Positions 118 to 7,554 of a stretch of 7,784 nt of DNA are shown here, piece after piece (the stretch's first letter is position 1; each line of letters begins with the position of its first letter). Source of the stretch: an uncultured Hippea sp. (GTDB taxonomy: Bacteria > Campylobacterota_A > Desulfurellia > JAADFJ01); contig CAJVZA010000071.1 of assembly GCA_913009315.1 (NCBI GenBank), forward strand, positions 1 through 7,784, written 5' to 3'. A program made the position numbers and the translations under genes. The notes beneath the pieces were generated by a model. The model had not been told where the DNA came from and did no database searches. It saw only the letters and a list, made by a program, of their open reading frames with translations.

Positions 118-289
118 GATTTTTTATGAAAATAAGGTATTATTTCTGACTGTTTTATTTCTTCGAACTCCGGATATGGTTTACGAACCTGCCCGGCACA
201 AATCATATTTCTATTTTGAAAGAGATAACTTCAGGATATCTTATGAAAAGTTGTGAATCTGTTTATTGTACAGTGATTTCATTATTCAT

Positions 290-1979: not shown

Positions 1980-1986
1980 CAAATGG

Positions 1987-1992
1987 CACCTT
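1987..1992 (-). promoter_or_regulatory. Shine-Dalgarno AAGGTG of nth
   Basis: Seven nt before the ATG at 1979, against 4 nt before the TTG at 1982; this decides the start. It lies at the edge of the sequence that resembles repeat copy B. Confidence 0.6.
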
Positions 1993-2024
1993 GAACGGTT
2001 TTCGGTTTTATCAACATATAAATA

Positions 2025-2130
2025 CAGGCAGTATGAGGATGCAGCCGATTCAATTGAAAGATAATTCCGATTTGAGACTCAAGATGATCGTTCACGGATC
2101 GATAGAGATGCACCGACATCACAATTATTC
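2025..2130 (-). repeat. Intergenic repeat, copy A (diverged)
   Basis: The segment 2070-2108 aligns without gaps to 5141-5179 of copy B: 31 of 39 bases identical by hand count, in the same orientation. Similarity continues with small gaps to a shared CAGGCAG (2025-2031 and 5096-5102) on one side and to about 2130 on the other. On the minus strand the core reads TCTCTAT, then about 15 nt later CATCTTGAG. A 63-codon open frame (2170-1979) crosses it, but the frame equivalent to copy B's open frame contains stops, so the copy is treated as non-coding DNA. It fills much of the ppiD-nth gap. Confidence 0.7.
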
Positions 2131-2246
2131 GCCAAAAGCCCGCCCAAAAGGCAAAACGAAAAACATACACTGCAGCATTAGCTTTTACGCATTACGCGTT
2201 TTCTCATTTTGCTCAAGGCCTCATCCGATGCGCAAAATTAGGCACA

Positions 2247-4121
2247 TCAGATATTTTCCGTAAACTTTTTGTTGATTTTAATTTCAATGCCTTTTTTCAA
2301 ATTTGCAATCTTTTTATTCAATATAATCGATGCCTTTTTCTGCAGAAGCTGACGCCTTATCAGATCTTTTTTGCTCAAATAGTCTTTCTTATTAAATTTG
2401 CTTTTATTTTTAAAAGCGACAATATTGTACGAACTTGTGTTGCTGCAGACAGCAATTTCGTTACTTTTCAACGATACCAATTTTTGCGGCAGGCATCCAA
2501 GCTGTAAACTTTCAGTTTCAGCCTCCGAAATCAAACTTGTTGATTTATACGCCAAATTTAATTTTTTTCCTGTTTTGTACACACCTATCTTTTTAGCTAT
2601 TTTTGCGGCTTTTTTCTCCATATTTTTTGCAATCTGAACAGATTTAAGCTGAATGACGGCAGATCTGATCTTTGACTTCAGAGTTGCAAACGCAGGTATA
2701 TATGATTTTATGGTCTTGTCTTTTTTAAAGACTATAAAATGCCCCTTGCCTGCCTGAACAGGTGATGATATCTTGCCTTTGGCAAGCAATACGGCACTCT
2801 TGTAGATATTCTGAGTATAATCTCCAAACAGATCTCCGTTGTATGAGAATGGTTTTGAAACCAATATAGGATAGCCTTTAAAATTGTTATCACCTTTTGC
2901 ACTTTTCCATGCAATTTGAGCTCTTTCTGCGTTATTAAACAGATTCTGATACGCTTTAAAGAGTCTTAGATTTTTTCCAATCTCATCGGCTACGTCATCA
3001 AAACTTTTTACAGATGATTCTTTTCTGCTGATTACTTTAATAATATGATAGCCGAATTGTGTTTTGACCGGTTTGCTTATTTCGCCGATTTTAAGTGAAA
3101 ATGCTGCATCGGCAAACGGCTTGACAAGCTGGTTCTTTTGAATATATCCTAAATCGCCGCCTCTAACTCTTGAACCGGGGTCATCTGAGTATTCTTTTGC
3201 CAGTTTACCAAAAGATGCGCCTTTTTTAAGCTCTTTATAAATCTTTTCTGCCTTTTTGAGAGCATTTTTGTATGATCCGTCTTTACCTTTGGCGATCAGA
3301 ATATGCTCGGCATGAACAACCGCAGGCACAAGGAATCGTGTTGGGTGGGCATCATAAAACTCTTTCTCTTCCTTTTTTGTTATCTTTATGCTATTTTCAG
3401 TATTGCCTATATTCACATCAATATATTTTATTACCACCTTTTGGGGCACTCTGAACTGCTCCTTGTACTTGTTGTAGTAATCTTTCAGATCACCTTTTTT
3501 TATCTTGACATCCTTCTTATATCCGGCAGCATCAACAACAATGTATCTGTAACTTCTCTTTCCGTACTCGGAAAGATAGGCTTTTTTAATCTCATTATCG
3601 GAAACATTAACATTTCCTATAAGTTTCTGAGCTTCTTTGCGCACCAAAAGATCTTTTCTAAGCGCACCTTCATACTCCTTTTTTGTCTTATTGTTCAAAC
3701 GCAAAAAATTATCATAAAGATCGCGGCTGAAATGCCCGCCCCGCATAAAATTCGGATTGCTTTCAATTTCAGCAGCGAGATCGGTATCACTAACTTTGAC
3801 TCCGTCCTTTTTTGCCTGAAGAACCAATACTGCTCTGTTAATTATGTTGTTTTCTATCTCCTTATCAAAGCCCAGCTGTTTTGCCATCTGTTTATCAAAC
3901 TTTCCGCCTAAAAGCCGGGAATATATCTTGTAATAATGATTATAAATCTTTTGATAATCACGGGCGGATATTTTCATATCTCCAACGCTTACGGCTATAT
4001 TTTCTCCCTTGCTGAAGGGACCTGCCATATAAAGCACCGCACCTCCGGCAACAAACGCAAAAATACCGACCCATATTACCAAGCTTAGCAGTTTGATGTT
4101 TTTTCTAAAAATTGTTATCAT
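2247..4121 (-). CDS. ppiD: PpiD-like membrane-anchored peptidyl-prolyl isomerase/foldase
   Basis: 624 aa, almost the same length as E. coli PpiD (623). A short cytoplasmic start and one N-terminal transmembrane helix (about 11-34, rich in L, V, I, A, F) anchor it in the inner membrane with the remainder in the periplasm. A SurA-like N-terminal chaperone region (about 40-200) precedes a parvulin rotamase domain (about 266-366) with the signatures HAEHILI, FGKLAKEYSDDPGS, GGDLGYI and FGYHIIKV. A Lys-rich C-terminal region (about 380-620) resembles the second, degenerate half of PpiD. It would help newly exported proteins fold. The ATG at 4121 overlaps the TGA of the radical SAM gene by 4 nt and has GGGAGAG 4 nt upstream (4126-4132), so the two are translationally coupled. 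SurA or PrsA are alternatives, but the uncleaved anchor and the length favour PpiD. Confidence 0.88.
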   Translation of the reverse strand: MITIFRKNIKLLSLVIWVGIFAFVAGGAVLYMAGPFSKGENIAVSVGDMKISARDYQKIYNHYYKIYSRLLGGKFDKQMAKQLGFDKEIENNIINRAVLVLQAKKDGVKVSDTDLAAEIESNPNFMRGGHFSRDLYDNFLRLNNKTKKEYEGALRKDLLVRKEAQKLIGNVNVSDNEIKKAYLSEYGKRSYRYIVVDAAGYKKDVKIKKGDLKDYYNKYKEQFRVPQKVVIKYIDVNIGNTENSIKITKKEEKEFYDAHPTRFLVPAVVHAEHILIAKGKDGSYKNALKKAEKIYKELKKGASFGKLAKEYSDDPGSRVRGGDLGYIQKNQLVKPFADAAFSLKIGEISKPVKTQFGYHIIKVISRKESSVKSFDDVADEIGKNLRLFKAYQNLFNNAERAQIAWKSAKGDNNFKGYPILVSKPFSYNGDLFGDYTQNIYKSAVLLAKGKISSPVQAGKGHFIVFKKDKTIKSYIPAFATLKSKIRSAVIQLKSVQIAKNMEKKAAKIAKKIGVYKTGKKLNLAYKSTSLISEAETESLQLGCLPQKLVSLKSNEIAVCSNTSSYNIVAFKNKSKFNKKDYLSKKDLIRRQLLQKKASIILNKKIANLKKGIEIKINKKFTENI

Positions 4122-5005
4122 AATTCTCTCCCATAGTTTATAAAATTTTCGTCTCTATTTATATCACAGTTTTCGTTCTGTATCCAGCCTGAAAATTGCA
4201 GCCTTTTTGCCTTCTGCACCACTCTCATATATTCCTTTCTATTTAACTTCCTGCCTATTTTAGAAATTTCAACCGCCTTATAGGCAGGAAAATATTGCCC
4301 CATAACACTGACAGTCACCTGACTGCCGAAAGTCTTCTTTATCCAATCCAATATCTTATAAGATTGATCGATAAATCCCGGAATTACGAGATGCCTTATA
4401 ATTAATCCTCTCGTTGCTGCAGAAGATTCAGTATCGACAGCTCCGACAAGCTCGTACATTTTTTGAATCGCTTTTTTTGCATAAGTCGGATAACTGAACG
4501 TATTGCACAAAAAAGCTGCAGCAGCCTCATCAAAATATTTGAAATCAGCTAAAAAAATATCAACAATACCATCAAGTTTTTCCAGTGCTTCTACATTGAG
4601 AAACGAGCTCGTATTAAACAGAATCGGAATGTGCAAACCGTCTGCCCTGGCAGATCTAACGGCATGGATAATCCATGGAATATATTGATCAGCCGTTACA
4701 AGATTGATATTACCGGCACCCCTTTTCTGCAGAATAAGCATTATTTCGCTGAGTCGCTCTATACTTATAGCTTTTCCTATACCATACTGACTTATGGGAT
4801 AATTCTGACAAAATTTGCAGGAAAGCGTACAGTGAGAAAAAAATATCGCTCCCGATCCGTTCTCTCCCGAAATAGAAGGTTCCTCGCCTTTATGTATACA
4901 GAAACTGGCTATTTCCGGCTGCCCTGCCCTGCAATAGCCAAGCTGACCATTTAAGCGATCCGCGTTGCAATTGCGAGGGCACAGATTACATCTGAATGAT
5001 TTCAT
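4118..5005 (-). CDS. PflX-like radical SAM protein (COG1313 type), substrate unknown
   Basis: 295 aa. The radical SAM cluster motif C-X3-C-X2-C is at C59, C63, C66 (HCTLSCKFCQN). Ahead of it is a second cysteine set, C6-X2-C9-X3-C13-X11-C25 in the context CNLCPRNC...GQLGYCRAG, which is the hallmark of the PflX/COG1313 group. Further conserved segments are NLVTADQYIP (98-107), LFNTSSF, DIFLADFKYFD and RHLVIPG. The group is named for resemblance to pyruvate formate-lyase activases, but to my knowledge its substrate is not established; a Gly-radical partner is not present in the window. The ATG at 5005 has no clear Shine-Dalgarno; the nearest GAGG is about 18 nt upstream. It overlaps ppiD by 4 nt, and its 5' side is repeat copy B. 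Confidence 0.88.
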   Translation of the reverse strand: MKSFRCNLCPRNCNADRLNGQLGYCRAGQPEIASFCIHKGEEPSISGENGSGAIFFSHCTLSCKFCQNYPISQYGIGKAISIERLSEIMLILQKRGAGNINLVTADQYIPWIIHAVRSARADGLHIPILFNTSSFLNVEALEKLDGIVDIFLADFKYFDEAAAAFLCNTFSYPTYAKKAIQKMYELVGAVDTESSAATRGLIIRHLVIPGFIDQSYKILDWIKKTFGSQVTVSVMGQYFPAYKAVEISKIGRKLNRKEYMRVVQKAKRLQFSGWIQNENCDINRDENFINYGREL

Positions 5006-5027
5006 ATAGTTCAGAAATTAAAGCCTC

Positions 5028-5200
5028 ATGAGCATCTCTATTAATTCTGCATGTTTCAAATTGAGAATCCGAATTCGCAGATAAAGCACAAATTGCAGGC
5101 AGCAGCGAGGGATATTGCAAATCCGGTTCAAATGAGATTAATTTGGAGCTCAAGATGACAGTTAACGGGTCAATAGAGACACTCATACACTAATCATATC
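5028..5200 (-). repeat. Intergenic palindromic repeat, copy B
   Basis: The ends carry inverted arms: ATGAGCATCTCTATT (5028-5042) against the complement of 5172-5186, 13 of 15 matching. The inverted similarity continues inward at lower level to about 5075 and 5140, with TTGAG and TCC-AATT blocks at matching spacing. The right part (5096-5200) is shared with copy A. On the minus strand CTGTCATCTTGAGC followed by AATCTCA recalls the widespread bacterial intergenic repeats built on a TCATYCTGAGC core (from memory). A 66-codon open frame (5186-4986) starts exactly at one arm and runs into the radical SAM gene; it has no ribosome-binding site and is considered spurious. Function unknown: REP/MITE-like element or transcript-processing hairpin. 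Confidence 0.65.
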
Positions 5201-5266: not shown

Positions 5267-6181
5267 TTAAACCGACTTTGCAAATCCCAATTGTTCAACA
5301 TAGCCGGCAATTCCATTTTCTATCGATACATTAGGATTATAACCAAGCAGATGTCTCGATCCGGAAAGATCTGCCTCAGTATGAATCTGAAAGAAATCGT
5401 AAGGGCAGCTGAAATATTCAGGCGGCAGATCGATACCCATCGTATCATTAAGAATGGCAACAACTCTGTTGAATGTTGTTGCTGTACCTGAACCTACATT
5501 GTACACACCGTTGTTTTCTGTTTCCAGCGCCCTGATATTTGCCTCCACGACATCATCGATTGAAACAAAATCTCTTTTTTGTTCTCCATCCGTAAAGATT
5601 CTCGGGCGCTTTCCCTCTTTCATCTGACAGGCAAGCTGGTATATCATGCTTGCAAATTTTCCTTTATGCTGTTCTCCGATACCATACACATTAAAATAAC
5701 GCAAGCCGACAATATCCATACCATATTTCTTAATATAGTAAGATGCCAATTGATCCATGCACAGTTTTGAATATCCATACACATTCAAAGGCGCAAGTTT
5801 GACATTCTCTTTTGTTGGAGCACCTATGTTTCCATATACAGCTGCGCTTGACGCATAAATAACCTTTATATGTTCCTCTCTGGCAAATTCAAGTATTCGT
5901 CTAAATGCTCCGAAATTATTTTTCATCATCTTTTCCTGATCGGTAACAGTGGTATCTGTTATAGCCGATTCAAAAAACAGCGCATCGGATCCGAAAAACG
6001 GATCGAGATCGTCCGATGCCAAATCCATACAAAAAAACTCTCCTTTGTAATCTATCAGATTTTTAAATGTACCGCTATAAAAATTGTCCGCCGCAACAAC
6101 GTTATAATTATCCCTTTTCAATCTTTTCGCTATATTCGATCCTATAAATCCTGCGGCGCCGGTAACAGCTATTTTTTTCAT
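5267..6181 (-). CDS. hldD: ADP-L-glycero-D-manno-heptose 6-epimerase
   Basis: 304 aa, family length about 310. It converts ADP-D-glycero-D-manno-heptose to the L-glycero form used for the LPS inner core, in the cytoplasm. The Rossmann motif GAAGFIG is at 8-14. SSAAVYG (111-117) supplies the catalytic serine and YGYSK (135-139) the Tyr-Lys pair. RYFNVYG...HKG (K173) and the following GEQKRDFV match the HldD-specific pattern, as does FFESAITDTT, which corresponds to the HEGA..STT stretch of E. coli HldD. The ATG at 6181 is chosen over the in-frame TTG at 6187 because GGGAG (6188-6192) is 6 nt upstream. It starts 2 nt after the tilS stop, so it is co-transcribed with tilS. Another sugar-nucleotide epimerase is possible but less likely. 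No other heptose pathway gene is in view. Confidence 0.88.
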   Translation of the reverse strand: MKKIAVTGAAGFIGSNIAKRLKRDNYNVVAADNFYSGTFKNLIDYKGEFFCMDLASDDLDPFFGSDALFFESAITDTTVTDQEKMMKNNFGAFRRILEFAREEHIKVIYASSAAVYGNIGAPTKENVKLAPLNVYGYSKLCMDQLASYYIKKYGMDIVGLRYFNVYGIGEQHKGKFASMIYQLACQMKEGKRPRIFTDGEQKRDFVSIDDVVEANIRALETENNGVYNVGSGTATTFNRVVAILNDTMGIDLPPEYFSCPYDFFQIHTEADLSGSRHLLGYNPNVSIENGIAGYVEQLGFAKSV

Positions 6182-6183
6182 AT

Positions 6184-7554
6184 TCAACTCCCATTCCTAC
6201 AATTTATTTTAATTATCATTCTGCTTTGCATATCGACTTTTACCCTATTATCAATCTGAACAGGCAGAGCTGCAATAATTCCCTGCTCATCACATAAAAT
6301 ATAGATATATTTTCTGAAATAAACCGGTATCATTTTTTTCATTAAGAATCTAAATATCTTTACTTCATTCTTCATACCAAAAGGGACAAACCGATCCCCT
6401 TCTCTTGCGGTTCTCAAGTGTATCTTCCCTGTTGTTTTATGCAAATCAAAATAAAGACTATTTGATTTTTTTTCATATTTGTATAGAGGAAACTTTGCAG
6501 GCTTCTTGCCGTAATCAGCCTTTATTGTAACATTGCCGATCTTTATCTTCTTTTTCAGATCCAATTCGATATTAATCGGAAAATCATTTTTTTTATTCGT
6601 AAAGGCAATATACCCGCAGCTGACCAATACTCGAAAATCTCCATATAAGGCTGCACCGCTGCCCTTTTTTATTCGACTAAGCGCATTCTCAGTAAAATTT
6701 AACGGAGGATTATAAAAACTTCCGGTAACCTTCATATAAAAAAAATTTATAAGACGAAACTGGAGAACCTTCTCGAAATTCAAAAACTTGTCTCTTGTTA
6801 TTTCCCAGAAATCTGTTTTTCTGCTAAAAAATTTCAGGCGTTTAAACATTTCATTGTCAATGAAATTGTTCTCATCGTTTAGATATTTGACATTTCTGCT
6901 TACTGTTACGGACAGATTTGTATTTAATTTTCTCAAGCTTGGGATAATATTTATTCTTATATAATTTCTTCTGTATCTTGTGTCGTTATTTGTTTCATCA
7001 ATTCTGTATTCCTGATTATTTTCATTTAAAAAGGCAATCAAATCCTTTCTGACAAACGATAACAGCGGTCTTACAAAAATACCTCGTCTTGCATGAATTC
7101 CTGAAATTCCACCGAGTCCGGAGCCTCTTACCATTCTCAGAAGCACGGTTTCTACCTGATCATCTGCAGTATGGGCAACAGCAATAAAATCCAGTCCCAT
7201 TATCTTTGCAGAATTCTCAAAAAAGTTATATCTAACTATTCTGGCAGATTCTTCAGGAGACATTTTATTATTTTTGTGAAACTCTTCAACATCCGATGAG
7301 CCTGTTAGAAAAGGTAAACTCAGTTTTCGAGCCAGATTTTTTACAAAGATTCGATCGTCCGATGATTTTTTACGCAGTTTGTGATCAAAATGAAGCACTA
7401 CAAGATGTTTTCTAAGCTCTTGCACGGAATGCATAAGCAGTAAAAGCGCAACGGAATCAGGACCTCCGGAAACAGCTATACCTATCCTGTTGTTATATAT
7501 AAAATCGAAATTTTTATAAAGCTCTGATTGAAACTCAGACACATAATATGACAT
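6184..7554 (-). CDS. tilS: tRNA(Ile)-lysidine synthase
   Basis: 456 aa from the ATG at 7554. The enzyme attaches lysine to C34 of tRNA-Ile(CAU) using ATP, changing both codon reading (AUA) and charging (Met to Ile). The PP-loop SGGPDS is at 29-34, followed by VVLHFDHKLR (52-61), AHTADDQVETVLLRMVRGSG (127-146) and DETN...RRNYIR (186-200), all typical of the catalytic half. A C-terminal TilS domain (about 377-450) begins with LRTAREGDRFVPFG. The open frame extends upstream to 7629, but that stretch runs through the tRNA gene, so the start at 7554 is preferred. No Shine-Dalgarno is visible before it. It lies 24 nt behind a tRNA in the same direction without an intervening terminator and overlaps the expression region of hldD. 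Confidence 0.95.
   Translation of the reverse strand: MSYYVSEFQSELYKNFDFIYNNRIGIAVSGGPDSVALLLLMHSVQELRKHLVVLHFDHKLRKKSSDDRIFVKNLARKLSLPFLTGSSDVEEFHKNNKMSPEESARIVRYNFFENSAKIMGLDFIAVAHTADDQVETVLLRMVRGSGLGGISGIHARRGIFVRPLLSFVRKDLIAFLNENNQEYRIDETNNDTRYRRNYIRINIIPSLRKLNTNLSVTVSRNVKYLNDENNFIDNEMFKRLKFFSRKTDFWEITRDKFLNFEKVLQFRLINFFYMKVTGSFYNPPLNFTENALSRIKKGSGAALYGDFRVLVSCGYIAFTNKKNDFPINIELDLKKKIKIGNVTIKADYGKKPAKFPLYKYEKKSNSLYFDLHKTTGKIHLRTAREGDRFVPFGMKNEVKIFRFLMKKMIPVYFRKYIYILCDEQGIIAALPVQIDNRVKVDMQSRMIIKINCRNGS
6188..6192 (-). promoter_or_regulatory. Shine-Dalgarno GGGAG of hldD
   Basis: Lies inside the last codons of tilS, 6 nt before the ATG at 6181 and immediately adjacent to the alternative TTG at 6187, which it therefore cannot serve. 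It supports translational coupling with tilS. Confidence 0.75.

Follow-up and report, generated by a model that had tools for sequence, protein, structure and literature searches.

The window analyzed here is a stretch of 7,784 nt (positions 1–7784 of contig C71) in G000, a draft genome of 1.74 Mb in 96 contigs, and it raises the question of why a run of genes on one strand is interrupted by two long gaps that resemble each other. The run lies on the minus strand between a lysR-type regulator and tRNA/5S genes and consists of lysR; an nth-type endonuclease III gene (1323–1982; Pfam HhH-GPD and HHH); a gene for a ppiD/SurA-type peptidyl-prolyl isomerase (2247–4121; SurA_N_3 and Rotamase); a gene for a radical SAM protein, probably AmrS-like (4118–5005; Radical_SAM); a gene for a galE-like NAD-dependent epimerase (5267–6187; Epimerase); and tilS. 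The nth-ppiD gap of 264 nt and the amrS-galE gap of 261 nt are, as originally noted, the only long ones from nth to tilS. The first contains repeat copy 1, with nth downstream of it, and the second contains copy 2, with the epimerase gene upstream in the direction of transcription; the isomerase and radical SAM genes lie between the two copies.

The original prediction held that positions 2070–2108 and 5141–5179 form a shared core and that the distance from a CAGGCAG block to an ATAGAGA block is the same in both copies. The ungapped match of 31 of 39 positions (79%) was reproduced exactly, as was the span of 84 nt in each copy. Local alignment of the whole gaps gave a score of 25; the scores of 2000 dinucleotide-preserving shuffles averaged 10.7 (sd 1.5) and did not exceed 19. 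In the opposite orientation, the gaps scored 12. A core agreeing at only 31 of 39 positions might be put down to chance, but chance was rejected because the score exceeded those of all 2000 shuffles. A local duplication of the region was likewise rejected, as about 100 further copies were found over 58 contigs (see below), and neither account of the similarity is now credible.

When copy 1 was used as a blastn query against its own genome, approximately 25 partners were found, centered on its right arm; copy 2 gave weaker matches, some of them full-length. Putting these matches in one orientation revealed a unit of approximately 160 bp with long inverted arms, here called HP. A covariance model built from 19 copies detected 103 distinct loci in G000 at E<0.01, 61 of them at E<1e-10, and palindromic copies were matched on both strands. 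The loci total 15.25 kb (0.87% of the genome) and are spread over 58 contigs. They are mainly intergenic, with less than 10% overlap with a long ORF in 56 of 70 copies, and they show no uniform direction with respect to genes (22 against, 15 with, 7 divergent and 4 convergent). The proposal of an old family dispersed through the genome, as opposed to a recent duplication, was thus borne out by the genome search, and also by the solo copies common to the sister species (see below). The suggested kinship of the repeat with the TCATYCTGAGC class was not supported: this motif occurs 8 times in the genome (2 times for the reversed control), with 5 of the 8 inside HP variants, and the family consensus core reads TCATCTTGAG instead.

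The HP unit is approximately 155–165 bp long, begins with GGGYACCTCTRTTAATTC and closes with an inverted copy of it. Most copies measure 130–165 bp, and those of approximately 190–240 bp have another repeat nested inside. The left end was read as GGGYACCTCTRTTAATTCTAAGCGTT, with its inverted copy at the right end; farther in are an inner arm pair (CAAATTGAGAATCCAAATCC and GGATTTGGGACTCAAGATG) and a central stem (GCAAATTGCAGGTAATAGC and GCTATTGCCAAAATTTGC). With its terminal inverted repeats (GGGCAACTCTATTAATTC and GGATTAATAGAGTTGCCC), an entire young copy pairs with itself and forms one hairpin over its full length (−40 kcal/mol with DNA parameters, z=−9.4). HP is shorter than 500 bp and has neither a conserved ORF nor a transposase gene. 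A GC-rich palindrome of approximately 25–35 bp, CCTGTCTGCGTGCG...CGCACAGGCAGG, constitutes a third repeat, inserted in HP at different points (L008, L012, L017, L018, L108, L148 and L149) and elsewhere (L028, L083 and L265, with no recognized HP core nearby). At L099 and L015, on contigs C33 and C56, copies of HP or T (the second family described below) are adjoined by a repeat of the TCATTGCGAGC...GCAATC type, which we take to be a further dispersed repeat of G000.

On both sides, HP adjoins T(T/A)(A/T)A-like, that is, TTAA-like, tetranucleotides. Exact identity of the two 4-bp flanks was seen in 14 of 171 cases, against 10.5 after shuffling (P=0.13), in a list that includes duplicates and chance matches. 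Since TTAA reads the same on both strands and is common, comparing the flanks pair by pair does not distinguish a target duplication from longer ends. The nested HPa insertion in T adds four bases outside the element, and the two cases of nesting together with the TTAA preference are the basis for a putative target duplication of 4 bp. These features also bear on the alternative to a MITE mobilized by a DDE-type transposase, namely a REP/BIME-type repeat for which a RAYT (TnpA-REP, Y1 family) would supply the transposase. Its intergenic location, its palindromic form, its approximately 100 copies and the failure to find a DDE partner would fit a REP; however, REPs are 20–40 nt long, and a unit of 155–165 bp with long matching ends, TTAA-like flanks and four additional bases on insertion into T is unlike them, which makes this origin highly improbable.

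In the window, copy 2 (5029–5186, plus strand) is complete, with a left arm (GAGCATCTCTATTAATTCTGCATG...), an internal part and a right arm (...GGGTCAATAGAGACACTC); the model match at 5027–5187 scored 130 bits (E=2.2e-28), and an ortholog is present in the sister species genome, G001. Copy 1 (1981–2116, plus strand) abuts the start of nth at 1982 and has an eroded left arm, the loss of which accounts for its weak model score (E=0.0027); it is found at the same place in G001. Its right arm is well kept, with 2069–2111 approximately 91% identical to young copies, and blastn matched 43 nt of it to two other loci at 91% identity (E=1e-10). The extent of approximately 105 bp given in the original prediction is therefore too short for the unit, the left arm of copy 2 having gone unnoticed.

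A third remnant, beyond the two noted gaps, lies at approximately 229–282. It comprises a solo or degenerate terminal inverted repeat of T (252–282, minus strand; 27 of 31 positions identical to ATGAGACCACTGCACAATAAGCAGATTCACAG) and, at 229–241 on the plus strand, a short segment (TTCAGGATATCT) that may be the stub of a third HP copy, as suggested by alignment with G001 contig C89. At the corresponding position, G001 has a fuller HP copy (C89:29801–29997, E=3.6e-13). Opposite copy 2, on the same G001 contig (L174), the place of the left arm is taken by a T end joined to the right arm of an HP in inverted orientation, which looks like an arm swap between two palindromic copies.

In G001, the model gave at least 46 matches, with approximately 29 distinct loci in 356 kb, or about 1 per 12 kb. 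None was found by the same model in a third representative of the genus, G002, or, under stricter filters, in the other 58 relatives sampled; a search of five of these repeated at a laxer limit gave a best E of 0.79. HP is thus restricted to two species among the genomes sampled. Phages, plasmids and viral contigs gave no matches, and an origin from phage or plasmid was rejected on these searches. In the literature searched, no paper names or describes the repeat.

Insertion sites were compared between the two species for age. Approximately 22 solo copies of G000 have an ortholog in the G001 stretches compared, and all of these sites, like those of both window copies, are occupied in G001. Conversely, four G001 copies without a partner in the compared G000 stretches were examined by a joined-flank test; two appear to be occupied in G000, where model matches lie at the corresponding places, and two have no orthologous DNA there. 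The comparison of G000, G001 and G002 revealed no solo copy whose site is cleanly empty in another genome. The amrS-galE gap of G002 is short and without HP, with flanks too diverged for alignment.

Old shared copies could have been retained for a function, and the original prediction had named covariation in the arms as the sign of selection on RNA structure. Across HP copies, covariation was no higher than in shuffles. In 17 orthologous pairs, 202 stem pairs were changed on one side, of which 83 were kept and 119 broken. Orthologous HP copies are 82.8% identical (2580 aligned sites) and have more gaps than their surroundings, where identity is 90.2% in the remaining non-coding DNA and 92.6% in coding DNA of the same stretches, the contrast with true spacer DNA being smaller than these figures suggest because the non-coding class includes some unrecognized genes. 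The lack of constraint stands despite this impurity. Faster divergence, broken stems and absent covariation together indicate that the solo copies are neutral relics.

The same data weigh on the possibility that the copies are structured RNAs or terminators/attenuators in operon untranslated regions, with hairpins kept by selection. Copies sit between co-oriented genes and are therefore probably transcribed; the hairpins of young copies are very stable; and copy 2 retains part of its hairpin, folding better than shuffles on the minus (gene) strand (z=−4.2; −1.6 on the plus strand). Copy 1, however, has hardly any stem (z=−0.1), and the mixed orientation relative to genes, like the decay described above, speaks against such a role. 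Rfam searches found only 5S rRNA and tRNA in the window and, on loci with young copies, nothing but a tRNA at E<1; no terminator-like sites were found in the copies. HP was accordingly rejected as a known RNA family and, after a search of the copies, as terminators or promoters. A selected RNA is largely refuted for the family and is very unlikely to explain it. Unlike the rest of the family, one orthologous pair (C23:20026–20191, L128, and G001:C14:4590–4755, L151) has all nine of its singly changed stem pairs still paired; the pair may have been co-opted as a functional hairpin, or the pattern may have arisen by chance, 17 pairs having been compared.

T is a second abundant MITE family, with the terminal inverted repeat TGAGACCACTGCACAATAA and a 3-bp TWA target duplication. 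A search with TGAGACCACTGCACAATAARCAGATTCACAG found 84 ends at 3 or fewer mismatches and none with the reversed control, and a 3-bp TTA/TAA duplication flanks about half of the T pairs listed. Complete copies are mostly 51–57, 265 or approximately 420–430 bp long. The shortest are nothing but two terminal repeats, and the longest consist of the 265-bp form with a single HP added at one of two points. At the first, TTTTCTATA|HP|TGAAGACAAGG corresponds to TTTTCTATAGACAAGG in HP-free T; at the second, AAATTCTATA|HP|TTAACTAACCGG corresponds to AAATTCTCAAACTAACCGG. T was also noted at L060, L075, L086, L092, L100 and L122, in addition to the window remnant. Many T ends lie approximately 100 bp from contig ends, so that T is probably responsible for part of the fragmentation of the assembly.

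The direction of the nesting can be read from two observations. In one orthologous T insertion, HP is present in G000 and absent from G001. On contig C21, a T element carrying HP (417 bp, with TAA on both sides) adjoins a tRNA gene, and G001 has a contiguous empty site at this place (94% over 228 nt). The existence of HP-free T copies and this precise empty site indicate that HP moved into T and that T then moved carrying HP, with the caveat that HP could have entered some T copies by recombination exchange between them.

We conclude that HP is a new family of a well-known kind: with a probability of roughly 0.9, it is a MITE family of non-coding elements mobilized through their ends, whose solo copies decayed and of which a few later spread as cargo in T. 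A transposase acting in trans, probably of the DDE type, would have bound the GGGYACCTC ends, and copies would have inserted at TTAA-like sites in spacers. Multiplication would have taken place in the common ancestor of the G000 and G001 species, after which the solo copies, both window copies included, decayed without constraint, a few others spreading again as passengers within T. Since the split of the species, solo HP appears to have been inactive, because the solo sites are common to both; only T appears active, with HP as a passenger, as is seen at the C21 site.

An autonomous element with HP ends (TTAAGGGYACCTCTRTTAATTC) was not among the ends found in the DNA compared, an absence that carries little weight in drafts that break at repeats. 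Nearly all pairs of HP terminal repeats there are less than 450 bp apart, and two are wider (1587 and 1993 nt); loci of DDE_Tnp_1 genes in the genome had no convincing HP ends. The source gene may be missing through breaks of the drafts at these repeats, or it may be extinct. A bolder account would have HP long without a transposase of its own and surviving only as cargo in an unrelated MITE, a two-step history datable by orthologous sites, with a few old copies (e.g., C23:20026–20191) possibly co-opted as regulatory RNA hairpins; we regard this combination as unlikely.

With HP read as a MITE family, the two odd gaps are accounted for, and probably also part of the fragmentation of the genome. 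One repeat family for which no description was found makes up nearly 1% of a small genome, and short ORFs across HP gaps should not be called as genes in annotation. The species pair offers a clean case of an old neutral MITE layer beneath a younger layer of nested MITEs, a case that is also useful for measuring neutral divergence.

Among known systems, IS5-type elements use 3-bp TNA targets. T, rather than HP, resembles them in its TWA duplications and in ends that start with (T)GAGACC, as does a presumed IS5-like end on contig C85 (TTA|GAGACCTTTGATTAA); it differs in having no transposase and in a terminal repeat that departs from theirs past the first bases. Besides its IS5-like transposase, contig C85 has a gene of the IS3 type. 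The start of the contig (positions 1–120, L101) looks to us like Illumina adapter/index sequence, and the contig may be an assembly artefact or a contaminant, perhaps foreign to G000.

Numerous decayed copies in intergenic DNA are also a feature of other bacterial MITEs, among them Chunjie of Geobacter uraniireducens, QMITE1 and QMITE2 of Coxiella burnetii, ERIC and Correia (PMC10969869). HP is like these in being shorter than 500 bp and non-coding, with inverted terminal repeats, AT-rich intergenic targets and a stem-loop, and in its gradient from complete to truncated copies numbering from tens to more than 100. It is unlike them in its confinement to two species, in a parent transposase that was not found and in recent copies that ride in a second MITE; it also had no match in Rfam or among plasmids, phages and viral contigs. 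Repeats inserted in one another are known from the BOX/RUP/SPRITE clusters of Streptococcus pneumoniae (PMC10969869). The nesting of HP in T and of the CCTGTCTGCGTGCG...CGCACAGGCAGG palindrome in HP is of this kind, although the sequences and the phylum differ and T and HP are mobile together as a single unit that makes a 3-bp duplication.
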